From Fluctibacter halophilus (GTDB lineage: Bacteria; Pseudomonadota; Gammaproteobacteria; Enterobacterales; Alteromonadaceae), in NCBI RefSeq assembly GCF_020687825.1, contig NZ_JAJEWP010000001.1, forward strand, positions 1,458,998 through 1,522,997: a stretch of DNA of 64,000 nucleotides, in the 5' to 3' direction. Below are positions 17,123 through 61,915 of the stretch, one piece after another. The position numbers were made by a program, and so were the translations under genes. The notes under the pieces are model-generated. The model saw nothing but the letters and a program-made list of their open reading frames with translations, did not search any database and was not told the DNA's origin. Each line of letters opens with the position of its first letter. Position 1 is the stretch's first letter.

Positions 17123-17152
17123 TAGGGTCCCGATAGGGTCCGGATAGGGTCC
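17123..17152 (+). repeat. Three direct repeats beside int, candidate integrase arm sites
   Basis: TAGGGTCC occurs at 17123-17130, 17134-17141 and 17145-17152, an exact 11-bp period (one helical turn), between the int stop and the tRNA 3' end. This is where arm-type integrase sites are expected. A short hairpin CCGCTTTTTAAGCGG follows at 17151-17165 and could end the int transcript. Confidence 0.6.
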
Positions 17153-17186
17153 GCTTTTTAAGCGGTCGGCTACAAGCCAGGAAAAG

Positions 17187-17263
17187 TGGTGCGTCCGAGT
17201 AGACTCGAACTACCGACCCCCACCATGTCAAGGTGGTGCTCTAACCAACTGAGCTACGGACGC
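17187..17263 (-). tRNA. tRNA-Val (anticodon GAC), prophage attachment site
   Basis: A 77-nt cloverleaf including the encoded CCA: acceptor stem GCGTCCG/CGGACGC, anticodon stem CCACC/GGTGG with loop TTGACAT (anticodon GAC, valine), T-loop TTCGAGT. Its 3' end faces the integrase gene, as expected if the phage entered the tRNA 3' half and rebuilt it. The left attachment site lies outside the window, so the core cannot be fixed. Confidence 0.95.
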
Positions 17264-52554: not shown

Positions 52555-52965
52555 ATGATGAAAATCGGACAACTCGCGGAACAAAGTGGTGTACCGGCCA
52601 GCACCATTCGTTATTACGAAAAACAAGGCCTGATGCCCGCCACTAAGCGGGGCGCCAATGGCTATCGCAGCTACGACCAGAGCGCGCTGGACAGATTGCA
52701 ACTGATCCGTTTCAGCCAGAACCTGGGCTTTTCGCTGCACGAAATGCCACGCCTGATGGATACCGGTGATGGCGTCGATCATGAGCGGGTCATGGCCCGC
52801 CTGGAGGAAAAACAACAGGAACTGGCCACCCTGATTAGTCAGCTACAACACAAGCACCATCATATGCAGGCATTGATCCAGCAACTCAAGGATGTCTGGC
52901 AGCAGGGCCAGTGTATGCAGCCTGAACAAGTGGGTGAATTGCTGCAAAAAATGCAGTCACAGTGA
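52555..52965 (+). CDS. MerR family regulator
   Basis: A 136-residue MerR protein. The N-terminal winged helix reads MKIGQLAEQSGVPASTIRYY then EKQGLMPATKRGANGYR, followed by a dimerising coiled coil (about 80-120, KQQELATLISQLQHKHHHM). The C-terminal end has one cysteine (QGQCMQPEQ) but no clear metal site. The likely regulator of the divergent OYE gene; the palindrome just upstream should be its operator, and its own start lies almost on that operator, implying autoregulation. Confidence 0.9.
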   Translation: MMKIGQLAEQSGVPASTIRYYEKQGLMPATKRGANGYRSYDQSALDRLQLIRFSQNLGFSLHEMPRLMDTGDGVDHERVMARLEEKQQELATLISQLQHKHHHMQALIQQLKDVWQQGQCMQPEQVGELLQKMQSQ

Positions 52966-53096
52966 ACTTATTCTCCCCCTGCACGTCTTAGTAATGCTCA
53001 GAGTTTGAGCAAACAGCGCAAGAGCCCCACTTGCCCACTCGCACAGTCGGTAAAGTGTGGTAAACTGCCAGCGTACTTTAACGTACCCAGTTTCCT

Positions 53097-53457
53097 GGGG
53101 CTGATTTTGGATTCGACAGGATTCTTGAAGCCTGAGGTGCATGCAGAGGAGCGGTTGGCCTCTTTAAAAAGCCGCACTTAAATAGTCGCAAACGACGAAA
53201 ACTACGCACTAGCCGCTTAATACCCGGCATAGGCCCTTCCACTTCAGCCGTTGTCTGCTCGTGAAGGTTCGGAAGGTCATACTAGTAGACTAGCGAGGGA
53301 AACTTGTCTGAGGTTGAACCGCGAAATAGTATCAGGCCAGCTACAAGGAAATCCTGTTTGTCGGAGTTCCAAGTAGTTAAATAGAAGACAAACTAAGCAT
53401 GTAGTACCAACGGTAGACGCTTTCTGGACGCGGGTTCGAGTCCCGCCAGCTCCACCA
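53097..53457 (+). ncRNA. ssrA: Transfer-messenger RNA (tmRNA)
   Basis: Rescues stalled ribosomes by acting as tRNA-Ala and then as a short message. 361 nt: a 5' end GGGGCTGATTTTGGATTCGA and a 3' end with T-arm CGGGTTCGAGTCCCG and encoded CCA. The tag reading frame at about 53190-53221 encodes ANDENYALAA then TAA. The acceptor pairs GGGGCT with AGCTCC. Downstream DNA carries extra copies of its last 17 nt. Confidence 0.97.
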
Positions 53458-53463
53458 ATAACA

Positions 53464-53493
53464 AACCCTGTGCCGCAAGGCATGGGGTTTTTT
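53464..53493 (+). terminator. Terminator after ssrA
   Basis: An 11-bp stem AACCCTGTGCC/GGCATGGGGTT with GCAA tetraloop and two G-U pairs, running into TTTTTT, seven bases after the tmRNA CCA end. Confidence 0.8.
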
Positions 53494-53613
53494 ATTGGTT
53501 GCAGTTTGAGAACGAGAACCCGCAGGGTTCGACCACATTGTCCGGAACAATGTGGAACATCGTCGCAACGCGGCGATGGCCCGAAGGGCGAAATACAGGG
53601 AAGTATTTCGTAA

Positions 53614-53630
53614 TCCCGCCAGCTCCACCA
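53614..53630 (+). repeat. Copy of the tmRNA 3' tail
   Basis: TCCCGCCAGCTCCACCA, identical to the last 17 nt of ssrA (53441-53457), recurs 173 bp downstream. It is followed by a second hairpin terminator (GCCACCCATCGGGTGGC with T run, about 53640-53662). Such tail copies mark either attachment-site remnants or tRNA-type tandem repeats. Confidence 0.85.
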
Positions 53631-53666
53631 AATAAATAAGCCACCCATCGGGTGGCTTTTTTATTT

Positions 53667-54633
53667 GTGTGGAATTTAGACGAGAACCCGCAGGGGTGAG
53701 ACTCCGGTCTTCGTAGAAGATTTTGGGTGACTTAACGTCACCCAAAAAGGACTCGAACGCCAGCACAGGAGGTGCTGGCTGGCTCACGGCCACATGGATG
53801 TGTTATTACTCTCTGTTTCAGAATTTCATAAATTTAGGACCACCCATCGGTGGTGAACGACGTGCCGTAGATGGCGCGGCTGGTAGACTGGAACAAGGAC
53901 GTTTTCGTGCTACCAGGAAGTCAAAGCCGAGCAATCCCGCCAGCGGCTTGCCAAAGGCAAGCTTGGGTGTATGGGCGCCGCATACTGACCATCGGGTGGC
54001 TTCTTTATTTGTGTGGAATTTAGACGAGAACCCGCAGGGGTGAGACTCCGGTCTTCGTAGAAGATTTTGGGTGACTTAACGTCACCCAAAAAGGACTCGA
54101 ACGCCAGCACAGGAGGTGCTGGCTGGCTCACGGCCACATAGATGTGTTATTACTCTCTGTTTCAGAATTTCATAAATTTAGGACCACCCATCGGTGGTGA
54201 ACGACGTGCCGTAGATGGCGCGGCTGGTAGACTGGAACAAGGACGTTTTCGTGCTACCAGGAAGTCAAAGCCGAGCAATCCCGCCAGCGGCTTGCCAAAG
54301 GCAAGCTTGGGTGTATGGGCGCCGCATACTGACCATCGGGTGGCTTTTTTATTTGTGTGGAATTTAGACGAGAACCCGCAGGGGTGAGACTCCGGTCTTC
54401 GTAGAAGATTTTGGGTGACTTAACGTCACCCGACAAGGACTCGAACGCCAGCACAGGACGTGCTGGCTGGCTCACGGCCACATGGATGTGTTGTTACTCT
54501 CTGTTTCAGAATTTCATAAATTTAGGACCACCCATCGGTGGTGAACGACGCGCCTTGGATGGCGCAGCTGGCAGACTGGAACAAGGACGTGTTCTTGTAA
54601 CCTGGCAGCCCGAGCCGAGCAGTCAGCTCCACA
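53667..54633 (+). repeat. 344-bp tandem repeat array downstream of ssrA
   Basis: Two full units (53667-54010, 54011-54354) are nearly identical; a third (54355-54633) follows and diverges at its end. Each unit holds several hairpins. These include a 27-nt GGGTGACTTAACGTCACCC dyad with A/T flanks, GCCAGCAC/GTGCTGGC, CCACC/GGTGG and GCTTGCC/GGCAAGC, then CCATCGGGTGGC with a T run. Units 1 and 2 carry AATCCCGCCAGC (53933 and 54277), a piece of the tmRNA tail. The third ends CAGCTCCACA (54624), again tail-like. No credible gene: frames on both strands are by-products. The period of 344 is twice 172, close to the 173-bp spacing of the complete tail copies. Confidence 0.85.
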
Positions 54634-54785
54634 TTTAAGCAAAAACCATTTCACTCCCCAACCCCCTCCCAAAGCACAGAATTACCGCTTTCGGTCAATA
54701 TAATTACCAAAAATTATACTTTTGACTAAACTTTATTCAGCGACCGGCCGTATACAGCTATGTTACACGTCGTGGAGCGAGGATC

Positions 54786-55064
54786 ATGATTGTAAAATTC
54801 AGTAATCAGAATGTGTTACAACGTCGTCTCACCGTACCGTCCGAGGGGCAGTACAACCGCTGGCGCTTTATCAAATTTGTGCTGGCGTTTCTGGTGATGA
54901 TCACCGGCGTCTCCAGCACCGTTGTTGCCCTGTTCGGCTTGGCCGATGGCTTTGACCGTATTGCAGTGGCCTCTGCCATTGTTGGGGTTGCGCTGTACTG
55001 GTTAGGCCGGCTCGAAATTCGACAACTGGATCGCGACAGCGACGAACATTCGACCATTGACTGA
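54786..55064 (+). CDS. Small membrane protein of unknown function
   Basis: A 92-residue protein with two membrane helices (about 30-50 and 57-73) between a polar N-terminus and an acidic C-terminus (RQLDRDSDEHSTID). GAGCGAGG precedes the ATG. It stands alone between the repeat array and the convergent end of the chemotaxis operon. No family recognised. Confidence 0.65.
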   Translation: MIVKFSNQNVLQRRLTVPSEGQYNRWRFIKFVLAFLVMITGVSSTVVALFGLADGFDRIAVASAIVGVALYWLGRLEIRQLDRDSDEHSTID

Positions 55065-58132: not shown

Positions 58133-58883
58133 CGGCCTCCTCCTGTACCTGCAACATGGTTTTTGCCAGCCGTCGAAAGACGTCACAACTCTGGCTCTTG
58201 GGAGCATAACCAAACACTGACTGGCCATGCCCGGGGCATTCCGCTAATACGGCCCTTTCCTGCACCACCAGCGGCAATAATCGCTCCCCCAGATAGTGCT
58301 GAAGCCGGGTCCGTGCCTGACGGCATATTTTGCGCGACTGGTATCGGTTGATCACCACCCACTTGCGTTCAAAGCGCCCCAGCACGCGCTCATAGCGCTG
58401 TAACTGCTTTAACATTGCCGACAGACCACTTAAGCCCAAATAATCGGCCGTTACCGGCACCAGCAGCTCGGTGGATGCCGCAATACCGTTAACCACCAGA
58501 AAACCGTTCGACGGCGGGCAATCAATCATTACAATATCGAACTCACCGCTGAGGGGCTGAAGAAGGCTTTTAAGTCGCAATCCTCTGCCCTTTTTCATCT
58601 GCACCGACTCAAGACGGAACAAATGCTGACCCGCAGCCACCAGTTGCAAGCCGTTTTCAACCTCGATACAGGCCTCTGATAACGTACAATCCCCTTGCAA
58701 TGCGCTGTCCAGTGACAGCGTCGGCGGGTCAAAAATCCCCAGGGACTGACTCAGGTGAGCCTGAGGGTCAAGATCTATGGCCAACACCCGCAGGCCCTTG
58801 GCCCGAAAGGCCGCGGCCAGGTTGACACATACCGTGGTCTTGCCCACACCCCCCTTCTGATTAACACAGCCTATGATCCGCAT
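58104..58883 (-). CDS. ParA family ATPase of the chemotaxis operon (ParC/PpfA-like)
   Basis: A 259-residue ParA/MinD-type ATPase. The deviant Walker A is QKGGVGKTT at 9-17, then LRVLAIDLDPQAHLSQSLG (A'), and VMIDCPPSNGF (Walker B). Inside chemotaxis operons such ATPases (ParC in Vibrio, PpfA in Rhodobacter) place and share out signalling arrays at division. No ParB is next to it, which fits this role rather than plasmid partition. Overlaps cheW by 13 bases upstream and the STAS gene downstream. Confidence 0.92.
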   Translation of the reverse strand: MRIIGCVNQKGGVGKTTVCVNLAAAFRAKGLRVLAIDLDPQAHLSQSLGIFDPPTLSLDSALQGDCTLSEACIEVENGLQLVAAGQHLFRLESVQMKKGRGLRLKSLLQPLSGEFDIVMIDCPPSNGFLVVNGIAASTELLVPVTADYLGLSGLSAMLKQLQRYERVLGRFERKWVVINRYQSRKICRQARTRLQHYLGERLLPLVVQERAVLAECPGHGQSVFGYAPKSQSCDVFRRLAKTMLQVQEEADEQEQARCA

Positions 58884-59377
58884 AGCGGCTCATCGGTCAG
58901 ACTGGCCAGCGTTGAACGCACGTCACTGACATTGGAAATCCGTAACAGCGCCGGTACATCAAGCAGCACCATCAGTTGATCGTCGACTTTGTACAAACCT
59001 GCAACCATTTGCTGAGGAAGCTGTTCCAGCACCGGCGCGGGCCGGATAGATTGTTGCTTAATGCTGGCAACATCACTGACGGAATCCACCACCAACCCGA
59101 CCAGGAAATCCCGCTCGCCCTGAGGCGCATTGACCACCACCACCACGGTTTTATCAGTTAGCGGCGGCTGCTTGCCATGGAACAAAATGCGCAAATCCAG
59201 TACCGGCACCATCTGATCCCTGAAATCAATGATCCCTATCCACTGGGCAGGCGAGTCAGGCAGTTTGCGCAGCCCGGTCAAGACCCGGATTTCCTGCACC
59301 CGCGTAATGTGAATGCCGAAAATATCCTGCCCTACGGACACATTCAGGATCTGGATGTGTTCACTGTGTTCCTGCAT
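58871..59377 (-). CDS. cheW: Coupling protein CheW (second copy)
   Basis: Links receptors to CheA. 168 residues with the CheW fold: FGIHITRVQEIRVL, PAQWIGIIDFRDQMVPVLDL, and LVGLVVDSVSDVASI. It differs clearly from the other CheW in this operon, so the two may couple different receptor states or arrays. ATG 59377 lies just after the receptor stop; GTG 59380 is also in frame. Confidence 0.94.
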   Translation of the reverse strand: MQEHSEHIQILNVSVGQDIFGIHITRVQEIRVLTGLRKLPDSPAQWIGIIDFRDQMVPVLDLRILFHGKQPPLTDKTVVVVVNAPQGERDFLVGLVVDSVSDVASIKQQSIRPAPVLEQLPQQMVAGLYKVDDQLMVLLDVPALLRISNVSDVRSTLASLTDEPLCGS

Positions 59378-59380
59378 CAC

Positions 59381-61915
59381 TCAGAACTCTTCCCATTCTT
59401 CGTCATTGTTCATGTCCACACCGGCCTTTTTCGTCGCTGGCGGCGCCGCGGGCTTGGGTGTGGTGGCAGGTTGCCGGCTGACCACTTTGGGCTTGGCCGC
59501 TACCGGAGCCACCGCTGGTGCACTCGTCTGCCCTTCTTCCACCGTAAAAAACGCAATCCGGTCGACCATCTCATCCACCTGCTGCACAGAAGACTGGCTG
59601 GCCGCGGATGCCTGCTCTGCCAACGCCGCATTCTGCTGGGTGATGTCGTCAAGCTCAGCAACTGCCTGGTTAACCTGGCCGATGCCACTGGCCTGTTCAT
59701 TGGTGGCATTGGCGATATCAGCAATCAGGGCAGATAGTTGATCAACATTGGTGAGAATATCCCGCAATGATTCACCGCAACGATTAACCAAATCACTACC
59801 GGCACCCACTTTCACCGAACTGTCGTCAATCAGGCCTTTGATCTCACGGGCTGATGTGGCCGAGCGCTGGGCCAGGTTACGCACTTCATTGGCCACCACT
59901 GCGAAGCCCCGTCCCTGTTCACCCGCACGGGCAGCCTCGACTGATGCGTTCAGTGCCAACAGGTTCGTTTGGAAAGCAATTTCGTCGATTACGCCGATAA
60001 TGGCGCTGATCTTGTTGGAACTTTCAGTGATCTCCCCCATCGCCTGAACCGCTTCAGTGACAATCAATTCCCCTTGATTGGCCTGCTGACGGGCTTTCTC
60101 AGCAGCAGAATTCGCGGTGGTTGCATTATCGGCGGTACTGCGCACATTGCCAGTCAGTTGCTCCAGACTTGCCGCCGTTTCTTCCAGGTTGGAGGCCTGT
60201 TTCTCGGTACGTTCAGACAATTGATCATTACCCAGTGACAACTCATGATTGGCTGAACGAATCGAATCTGCACTGGTTTTAATACTGCCAATCACACTGC
60301 TCAGGTGCTGGGTTGTGTTGTTCAGTGCGGTTTTAACATCGCCGAACATGCCCTGGTAATCATTGGTGATGGTCACCCGCATGTCACCCTGGGCAACTTG
60401 CTGTAGCGCGTCATTGATATCACGCACGAAGGCATTAACCGTTTGCGAAAGCTCATTAAGGCCATTCGACACATTGAGGAAGAAGCCTTCTTTGTTGTCT
60501 GTTCGGATCAGCGCACCCAACTGGCCCTGACTGACACTGGACACCAGCTTCTGAACTTCAGACTCGGTTTCATGTTGCGCGGTGACATCCGCCCATTCCA
60601 CCACGGTGCCGAGCCGTTGATTGTCTTCATCAACCACCGGCGTCGCAATCAGCGTGAAACGACGCTGACCGACCTGGATTTGGGTGCGGTAAGGCCGCTC
60701 CAGTTTGGCCAGCATGCCACGCTGATGAGACGGGTCTTTGTGGAATTTGTCGATGTTCTCACCGATTAAGCGATCGGGATCAAACTGTGGCAGCTCTTTG
60801 CGTAAATCATTCGCAGCGGCGCGCAGCATGGTTTGTACCGCTTCATTCATGTACACGATATCGAGATCACCGTCAGCCACCATCACATTGGTGGTGACAC
60901 TGTCCAGTGCCGCTCTGATGCGGGCATTCTCCTTAGCCTGGTGCTCCGCCGCACGCTGCTGCGTCACGTCTTCCCACTCCAGCGTGGTGCCCAGACGATT
61001 GCCCTCTTCATCCACCACCGGATTGGCCGTCAGCGCAAAATGAATATTGCCAACCTGGATCTGGGTGCGGTAAGTGTCCTTTAACGCCGTGAGTAATTTG
61101 CGTTGATGACTGGGATCTTTGTGGAAGATATCGATGTTTTTACCAATCAGATTTTCCGGATCGAAATCATCGCGGATCAAACGGAAGGTCGACAGGTTGT
61201 CGCGCATCATGTCGCGCATACTTTCATTAAAGTAAATGATGTTGCAGTCATTGTCGGCCAGCATGACGTTGGTACTGACATTGTCGAGCGCCACCTTCAT
61301 GCGGGCGTTTTCTTGTGCCTGGATTTTTTGCTGACGCTGTAACGTCAAATCGTGCCATTCCACCATGGTGCCTTCTCGCTGGCCCTGTCCATCAAACAAC
61401 GGGGTAACCACCAGACCGAAGGCCAACCCGGCCACTTCAATCTCTGCACGGTACACATCCCTGAGTTCACTGATCAGGCGGCGTTGGTGAGACGGGTTAA
61501 CGTGAAACACATCGATATTGGTGCCAATCAGGGTGGCGGTATTGAACTCTGGCAAGCTCTGACGCAAAGCAGTCTCGTGGGATTTCAACATGGTCAGCAG
61601 CGAGGCATTGACCGATTGAATACGCAAATCATTGTCCGCCACCATCACATTCGTGGTCAGGCTGGCAAAGGACCGCTCGATGCGGCCTTTATCCGCTTCC
61701 AGTTGCGCCAGTTTCCTTTGCCAGTCTTCGCCATCGGCGCTGCGGGCAGCAAATTGTTGTCGCAACCCCCAGCCCATCAGGATAGCCGTTAGCAGGTGGG
61801 CGGCCACGGCGATGATCACCATCGGATCGTGCTGCCACTGGCCAGCGGTTATCGCTGCGCTGACAACCACCAGCACCGCAGCAATAACGTAGTACATCGA
61901 GACATTGTGTTTCAT
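59381..61915 (-). CDS. Methyl-accepting chemotaxis protein with three PAS units
   Basis: An 844-residue receptor. Two membrane helices (about 8-24 and 32-50) are separated by only about eight residues, so there is no periplasmic sensor. Three similar PAS-like units follow (about 85-195, 210-320, 338-448), each with [11 protein letters not shown], a IDxFHxDPSHQR loop and a VEWxD(L/V)T end. Then come a HAMP-like stretch and the signalling domain with its tip [18 protein letters not shown]. The end, DEEWEEF, has the WxxF form of the CheR/CheB tether. Signals are probably sensed inside the cell (redox, oxygen or a ligand in PAS). Start at 61915 behind AAGGGGAAG. Confidence 0.95.

Follow-up and report, generated by a model that had tools for sequence, protein, structure and literature searches.

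Introduction

tRNA-linked repeats (TLRs) were first described in 1978 and, according to a 2021 paper (PMC8144298), had no known function up to that publication. In the published definition a TLR is part of an operon for tRNA or rRNA, has a core skeleton shared with other TLRs, and ends with 18-19 bp that are also the 3' end of the upstream stable RNA. In the CsrA-binding type GGA is found in hairpin loops, between two terminators. According to that source, the E. coli RNA RrB is produced by read-through of the first terminator (T1) and binds CsrA in EMSA at about 100 nM, and the binding is clearly lowered after three GGAs are changed, GGA in a hairpin loop being the canonical CsrA motif. RrB also binds Hfq, its tail copy was suggested to be an RNase E site, and termination at T2 of rrnB in E. 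coli is cited there as 100%. Deletion and overexpression of rrB had modest, similar effects. CsrA binding was shown there for the rRNA-linked TLR type in E. coli only; with a predictor of the CsrB family, the scores of the 19 tRNA-linked copies stayed under 0.01 (PMC8144298).

A literature search met TLRs by name in just two papers and found no report of them behind ssrA, which is weak evidence of absence, most subscription journals and all bioRxiv preprints lying outside the search. CsrA-related RNAs of Alcanivorax are named in PMC9788540, the accessible part of which makes no mention of such repeats.

Architecture of the ssrA locus

The window analysed here is a stretch of 64,000 nucleotides from Fluctibacter halophilus. 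Behind ssrA, the tmRNA gene, the order is T1, a structured unit of about 120 nt with a tail copy, T2 and a series of 344-bp units (Table 1). The initial annotation had reported a copy of the tmRNA 3' end 173 bp on; an exact copy of 18 nt is indeed present, with a start-to-start distance of 173. Its description of the units as rich in stems agrees with folding energies below those of dinucleotide shuffles, both for 53494-53634 (z -3.8) and for 53664-54010 (z -4.0). A terminator-like end in each unit was not recovered: the only plus-strand sites behind the tmRNA are T1 and T2, and none comes later. A sequence scan of 52950-54800 found no promoter-like site.

Table 1. Features of the ssrA locus and of the repeats behind it, with positions in the window.
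Feature	Position	Strand	Basis
ssrA, tmRNA gene, tag ANDENYALAA	53097-53457	+	ARAGORN and Rfam agree; 3' tail copied downstream
T1, intrinsic-terminator-like hairpin between tmRNA and repeat	53463-53490	+	terminator scan
TLR/RtT-type unit: frame ACGAGAACCCGCAGGG, core, tail copy	53512-53631	+	RtT 53485-53630; R1 53525-53621
Hairpin A of first unit, 9-bp stem, loop CCGGA	53533-53555	+	
Hairpin D of first unit, loop AGGGAA in CAGGGAAG	53588-53611	+	
Exact 18-nt copy of tmRNA 3' tail, TCCCGCCAGCTCCACCAA	53614-53631	+	original at 53441-53458
T2, intrinsic-terminator-like hairpin 3' of tail copy	53638-53658	+	terminator scan
344-bp tandem array, 2.8 copies, 97% matches	53645-54594	+	Tandem Repeats Finder
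R2 copy 1, GGA hairpins 53759-53779 and about 53791-53802	53693-53809	+	108.5 bits, training member
R2 copy 2, 3' loop CATAGATG, GGA lost	54037-54153	+	104.8 bits, outside training set
R2 copy 3	54381-54497	+	105.6 bits, training member
Partial, decayed R2 element, unit 1	53850-53910; again 54194-54254, 54538-54598	+	36.5-38.7 bits
Tail remnant AATCCCGCCAGC	53933-53944; again 54277-54288	+	sequence; 10-nt exact match
Last tail remnant CAGCTCCAC at array end	54624-54632	+	sequence

The nearly threefold repetition of a 344-bp unit was recovered by Tandem Repeats Finder, which gave a period of 344 only and not twice 172 as had been suggested. The expected partial tail pieces were also found, as a 10-nt remnant of the tail in the 344-bp unit. 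The initial 168-173-bp step is an element different from the 344-bp unit. The presence of two different elements, and of GGA loops in them, had been overlooked. A 16-nt frame, ACGAGAACCCGCAGGG, is found at 53512, 53680, 54024 and 54368, opening the first unit and recurring in the three array units, which have tail remnants close to their ends; the first unit and the array units thus have a common frame but different contents.

The plus strand of the array has seven GGA stem-loops (three of them copies of one), while shuffles had a mean of 1.27 and only 1 of 1000 had as many. The only other stretch of the window that nearly matches the array lies at about 58300-59800 on the minus strand, with 6 GGA stem-loops per 1183 bp. 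No Rfam family reached its own cut-off in the array. A protein-coding reading of the repeats was rejected: ORFs are present, but what is conserved is base pairs, and the two ORFs tested had no Pfam match (E<=0.01).

Other short repeats were seen in the window. The 11-bp repeat TAGGGTCCGGA is present in 2.8 copies at 17123-17153, some 33 bp downstream from the minus-strand tRNA-Val gene (17187-17263), and two short arrays of 12-bp repeats, GGGACAGAGTTC and CTTTCGGGACAG, lie at 1674-1771.

The first unit is related to E. coli rrB

The first unit matches the Rfam family RtT (RF00391) at 53485-53630 over the complete model (1-130/130) with 30.3 bits and an E-value of 0.0015, not reaching the gathering cut-off of 45; the best RtT score in the whole F. 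halophilus genome is 40.9 bits. Because of this score, the unit is treated as a TLR relative and is not filed as RF00391. The parallel with rtT drawn in the initial annotation is nevertheless borne out for the first unit by the full-length match, by the layout GGUUCGA-core-GUA-AUCC followed by the tail, and by kindred units behind tRNA-Ser(GGA) and tRNA-Tyr of the same genome, which carry 10 and 19 nt of the local tRNA tail, respectively. None of the 14 Rfam matches at E<=10 in 53440-54660 was to CsrB, CsrC, RsmX, RsmY or PrrB_RsmZ. Thr_leader, STnc70 and the other matches there to families other than RtT and tmRNA were taken as chance.

A covariance model of the core, R1, was built from 21 units of F. 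halophilus and its relatives, with no E. coli sequence among them. It matches the first unit (53525-53621), itself a training member, with 90.6 bits. The model also detects E. coli rrB, behind the 5S rRNA of rrnB, with 79.3 bits (E 3.3e-19), and both GGA loops are present in that match. The four E. coli tyrT/tyrV repeats score 28-39 bits, and by these scores rrB is a closer relative of the first unit than they are. The core of E. coli rrB splits a copy of the 5S end (GAGTAGGA-core-AACTGCCAGGCATCAAAT).

Set against the published definition, the first unit repeats the 3' end of the upstream stable RNA over 18 nt exactly. It has the shared skeleton, as R1 matches rrB and the four tyr repeats, and it carries GGA in hairpin loops between two terminators. 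Its host is a tmRNA; the genome's other copies follow tRNAs, and one lies approximately 410 nt behind a 5S rRNA. A tmRNA host is an extension of the definition as given in PMC8144298. Judged by sequence, the first unit appears to be a TLR with E. coli RrB as its nearest studied relative.

Structure and distribution of the R1 core

The R1 alignment consisted of 17 of the 24 units listed by a script that seeks a GGA hairpin and then an AGG hairpin (near duplicates and rearranged units were omitted) and four units from another list. Compensatory changes were found in 17 of 20 pairs of the predicted structure. For the four-hairpin structure, two-sided changes were present in 21 of 26 pairs and 93.5% of the cells were paired, compared to 36-40% when the partner was slid. 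The loops constant in this set are C-N-GGA in hairpin A and a CAGG(G)A type in hairpin D.

Of 108 distinct R1 units, 99 had GGA in loop A and 100 in loop D, compared with 6 in loop B and 3 in loop C, a retention that is biased upward because 17 of the 21 training units were chosen by the GGA/AGG script. After removal of the training rows the figures were 79/88 for loop A and 80/88 for loop D. Among the 25 units with scores under 51 bits, a single one was without GGA in both loops A and D. In 34 units from 29 loci of the wider class, GGA was found in loop A of 33, loop D of 32, loop B of none and loop C of 4.

The RtT model gave a different picture. It had a match at E<=0.001 in 66 of 369 class genomes, and in a sample of its 30 best loci, one per genome and taken with a model that favours the E. 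coli form, a GGA stem-loop was present in 8 and two in 3; the E. coli tyr repeats had none (0/4). The idea that GGA loops are universal in TLRs was therefore rejected. Since GGA is kept in R1 units but present in only 8 of the 30 loci of the RtT-model sample, the class contains two TLR forms. The TLRs of F. halophilus are of the GGA kind: of the 27 distinct R1 units at the loci searched in this genome, 25 have GGA in loop A and 24 in loop D.

R1 was detected in 25 of 40 relatives, with up to 108 candidates scored per genome, and the F. halophilus genome has 43 matches. In a search of 369 gammaproteobacterial genomes, with up to 11 candidates scored in each, R1 was found in 151, F. halophilus included. 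Among the matches listed by an exact-pattern scan, the hosts included Alteromonas, Aestuariibacter, Bowmanella, Aliiglaciecola, Nitrococcus, Sedimenticola and a Mariprofundus MAG.

The genomic context was examined for 148 R1 hits from loci picked as good matches (114 from the window and 52 of 104 loci, 34 from the 29 class loci L123-L151). A tRNA or tmRNA gene lies upstream on the same strand within 1.5 kb for 92 hits, and within 250 nt for 65. Of these 92, 48 end in 10 nt or more of the tail of their host gene, the corresponding figure for tails from different kinds of RNA being 2 of 1620. Within 400 nt, 66 of the 142 distinct hits are downstream of a tRNA or tmRNA in sense and 4 in antisense, 14 are upstream in sense, and 58 have no such gene. 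Some R1 matches follow 5S rRNA.

The initial annotation had proposed a covariance-model search to see if the unit always follows ssrA or also tRNA genes. In relatives it is not a constant neighbour of ssrA, as it was found in 3 of 19 tmRNA loci, one intact and two broken, and was missing from the other 16; it is also found behind tRNA genes. The L011 ssrA locus has a sense R1 match of 65.6 bits. In L014 (sense 35.6, antisense 32.1 bits) and L019 (antisense 33.3 bits and a sense piece of only 17.3) the sense core is broken by an opposite-strand R1 copy. Visual inspection showed tail-like ends of 14 nt in L011 and 12 nt in L019. When the DNA behind the relatives' tmRNA genes was scanned automatically for 17-nt copies of the tail, allowing up to 3 mismatches, 0 of 17 loci had one; in two further loci, L017 and L018, the gene end was not located.

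Several further arrangements were seen at these loci. In L028, and less clearly in L023, the DNA behind ssrA resembles the start of an integrase gene and not repeats (read by eye). Opposite-strand TLR cores lie within or beside sense units, as nested insertions, in L014 (1311-1457), L019 (1323-1454) and L043 (772-859). In L033 (1495-1583) and L048 (1182-1277, 1495-1590) TLR cores sit in copies of the 5' part of tRNA-Gly (GCGGGA-core-ATAGCTCAG) and not in a T-loop copy. The copy numbers in the TLR arrays of L006 and L090 are uncertain because of N runs inside them (1892-1989 and 1481-1578, respectively).

The second element

The 344-bp units contain a second element, R2. A wide regular-expression search for it returned mostly noise and a stricter pattern was used instead; 18 units were hand-picked from the resulting list for the alignment, and the window and 39 of 165 loci were searched with the resulting R2 model. 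Two-sided changes were found in 16 of 23 pairs, and 95.1% of the cells were paired, against 24-43% when slid. A measure counting further pair types was matched by 81 of 500 shuffles.

CANGGANG and CAGGANG are the CsrA/RsmA consensus. In the 82 distinct R2 units, GGA is present in 74 for each of two hairpins and in 4 for the third. The 3'-most loop is CANGGANG in 69 of the 82; the other GGA loop is CAGGANG in 26 and CGTGGANG, a form that lacks the A of CANGGANG, in 23, with various sequences in the remainder.

The F. halophilus genome has 72 R2 matches. The element is present in 14 of 40 relatives and in 34 of 369 class genomes, F. halophilus included. Within 400 nt downstream of a tRNA there are 7 units in sense and 15 in antisense, while 53 of the 82 have no tRNA within that distance, and several copies were seen by eye behind ORF ends. 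Because of the mixed orientation and the copies behind ORF ends, R2 is not regarded as tied to stable RNAs in the way R1 is. The R2-bearing loci L003, L004 and L008 had no Rfam match at E<=0.05. R2 is apparently an RNA element that was not previously described.

In L003 (1250-1560), L004 (1240-1720) and L008 (1100-1720) the R2 copies behind ORF ends are preceded by a hairpin, GCAAATC...GATTTGCGCAAGGTGAG. The 3' arm of this hairpin is recopied before later R2 elements, like the tail copies behind tRNAs.

CsrA and a CsrB-like RNA

The csrA gene is present in all 40 genomes, and the CsrA protein of F. halophilus keeps R44. Absence of a classical sponge was considered and rejected. The F. halophilus genome encodes a CsrB-like RNA (L152 440-753; G000:C6:227639-227952) that scores 58.3 bits, below the Rfam cut-off of 71, and has 21 GGA motifs. 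Counting stems of 4 bp or more, it contains ten GGA stem-loops, including tgaaatgcAGGATgcatttca, which is of the hairpin D type; its hairpins of the form stem-C-AGGAN-G-stem (CAGGANG) resemble hairpin D. CsrB was over the cut-off in 5 of the 40 genomes, and PrrB_RsmZ and RsmY reached theirs in none.

The csrA neighbourhood is itself full of GGA-loop elements. At L090 300-2300 (G000:C6:170799-172799) the order is csrA, tRNA-Ser, tRNA-Arg, R2, a second tRNA-Arg, a terminator, TLR units and two R2 copies, with R2 behind a duplicated 5' fragment of tRNA-Arg. In L044 (1541-1708) a TwoAYGGAY RNA (RF01731, over the cut-off and in the same Rfam clan, CL00106, as rsmX) lies near two R1 matches.

Proposed function and alternative explanations

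The reading favoured here, with moderate confidence, is that the first unit is a CsrA-binding RNA that is freed from the tmRNA precursor by T1 read-through and titrates CsrA. It builds on the observed anatomy of the first unit, the homology with rrB, the covariation, the association with stable RNAs and the local tail copies, and on a GGA retention read with the caveat of how the training units were selected. Transcription, processing, CsrA binding and titration by the unit are predicted. Polymerase passing T1 would produce a tmRNA precursor carrying the first unit, in which the copied tail would act as a second cleavage site for tail-processing enzymes, releasing a short RNA. The two GGA-loop hairpins of this RNA would bind a CsrA dimer and titrate CsrA, and CsrA activity would be tied to ssrA transcription, a link already proposed for E. 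coli rrnB. The 344-bp units could have arisen by core replacement or insertion and tandem duplication. With most transcripts expected to end at T2, and with no promoter-like site in the range scanned, the array may be silent or weakly transcribed; for the R2 units to contribute CsrA sites, polymerase would have to read through T2 or initiate at another point.

Several points weigh against the CsrA-titration reading. Both T1 and T2 precede the array, which has no promoter-like site in the range scanned. The training set was partly selected for GGA, and GGA stem-loops are present in only 8 of 30 RtT-model loci and 0 of 4 tyr repeats. Among the 142 R1 hits, 58 lack a tRNA or tmRNA neighbour within 400 nt, and a further 14 are upstream of theirs. 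R2 is more often antisense than sense near tRNAs, has the CGTGGANG loop in 23 of 82 units, and is matched by 81 of 500 shuffles in one measure. Six GGA stem-loops are found elsewhere in the window, a CsrB-like RNA already exists in the genome, and the effects of rrB are modest.

Both elements could also be selfish: the R1 core and R2 would be small non-autonomous insertions with hairpins recognised by a transposase, as in REP-like elements, the GGA loops being a recognition feature and stable-RNA ends safe landing sites. The numerous copies (43 R1, 72 R2 matches in F. halophilus) and the regular boundaries of the core, which in 114 hits is preceded by GA 82 times and followed by GTAA 61 times, fit this, as do the cores that interrupt tRNA or 5S end copies, the R2 copy behind the duplicated tRNA-Arg fragment, the opposite-strand copies and the 58 of 142 R1 hits with no tRNA or tmRNA within 400 nt. 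Against it, R1 behind these genes is in sense in 66 cases and antisense in 4, the local tail copies suit processing, CsrA binding is known for a homologue (PMC8144298), and the loop type of hairpin D is that of the genome's own CsrB-like RNA. Selfishness is seen as a rather unlikely explanation, and as a mode of spread it is compatible with CsrA binding. A mobile origin of both elements is plausible, considering their fixed ends and their insertion into copied tRNA pieces, and a function is still compatible with it.

Alternatively, the unit might be a processing or termination module that catches read-through RNA and offers a second cleavage site with no protein partner, its GGA loops being inherited baggage. 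T1 and T2 do flank the unit, the tail copy may hold a processing site, as suggested for RrB in PMC8144298, and the GGA-less form is common (RtT in 66/369 genomes, with GGA stem-loops in 8 of the 30 best loci). This explanation is considered quite improbable, as it does not account for GGA being kept while the stems change in the aligned units, nor for two different GGA-loop elements in one frame.

Many integrases use the 18-19 nt from the T-loop to the CCA, which is the stretch copied here, but the idea that integrases left att-site copies here by inserting repeatedly at the end of ssrA, which the initial annotation had also considered, is very unlikely, because the four flanking ORFs tested have no integrase domain in Pfam (Oxidored_FMN, MerR, CheB and one with no family over the cut-off), two ORFs of the repeats have no Pfam domain, and the core is a dispersed RNA, homologous at many stable-RNA loci and with covarying stems.

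With CsrA titration as the preferred reading of the first unit, the sequences suggest a possible role as CsrA decoys for the terminal parts of stable-RNA transcripts. A decoy network in many gammaproteobacteria is put forward tentatively, in which two structurally different GGA-hairpin RNA cassettes in copied tRNA, rRNA and tmRNA ends would be freed by read-through and tail processing and would have spread as insertions, so that CsrA activity would track stable-RNA transcription. If this is true, the ssrA locus would tie the network to ribosome rescue. Should R2 bind CsrA, it would represent a second RNA design that serves this purpose independently. The rrB-like GGA form was found here behind tRNA, rRNA and tmRNA genes, with compensatory stem changes around the GGA loops in the aligned units. 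Its presence at stable-RNA genes, and matches of its model in 151 of 369 genomes, make the decades-old question of TLR function testable, in the form of whether stable-RNA operons couple growth to the Csr network through decoys for CsrA at their ends.

Comparison with known systems

REP/BIME-type elements are dispersed repeats with many short hairpin copies per genome. The elements of the window resemble them in the number of such copies in one genome, but they often lie behind stable-RNA genes with local tail copies, where R1 is mostly in sense. With the CsrB and RsmX/Y/Z sponges the first unit shares GGA in hairpin loops; unlike these RNAs, it has two GGA hairpins per unit, is no stand-alone gene, and had no match to their Rfam models at E<=10. 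RtT and the E. coli tyrT/tyrV repeats have the layout, tail copy and hairpin skeleton in common with it, and RtT matches over its full length, although the unit stays below the Rfam cut-off and a GGA stem-loop is missing from all four of the tyr repeats examined. In E. coli RrA, RrB and RrF, the TLRs behind the 5S rRNA of rrnA, B and D (PMC8144298), the host is 5S rRNA and not tmRNA, and here a tandem array of the second element comes after the unit. The same order of stable RNA, T1, core, tail copy and T2 is found in both, and with rrB the first unit has in common the covariance core and both GGA loops.
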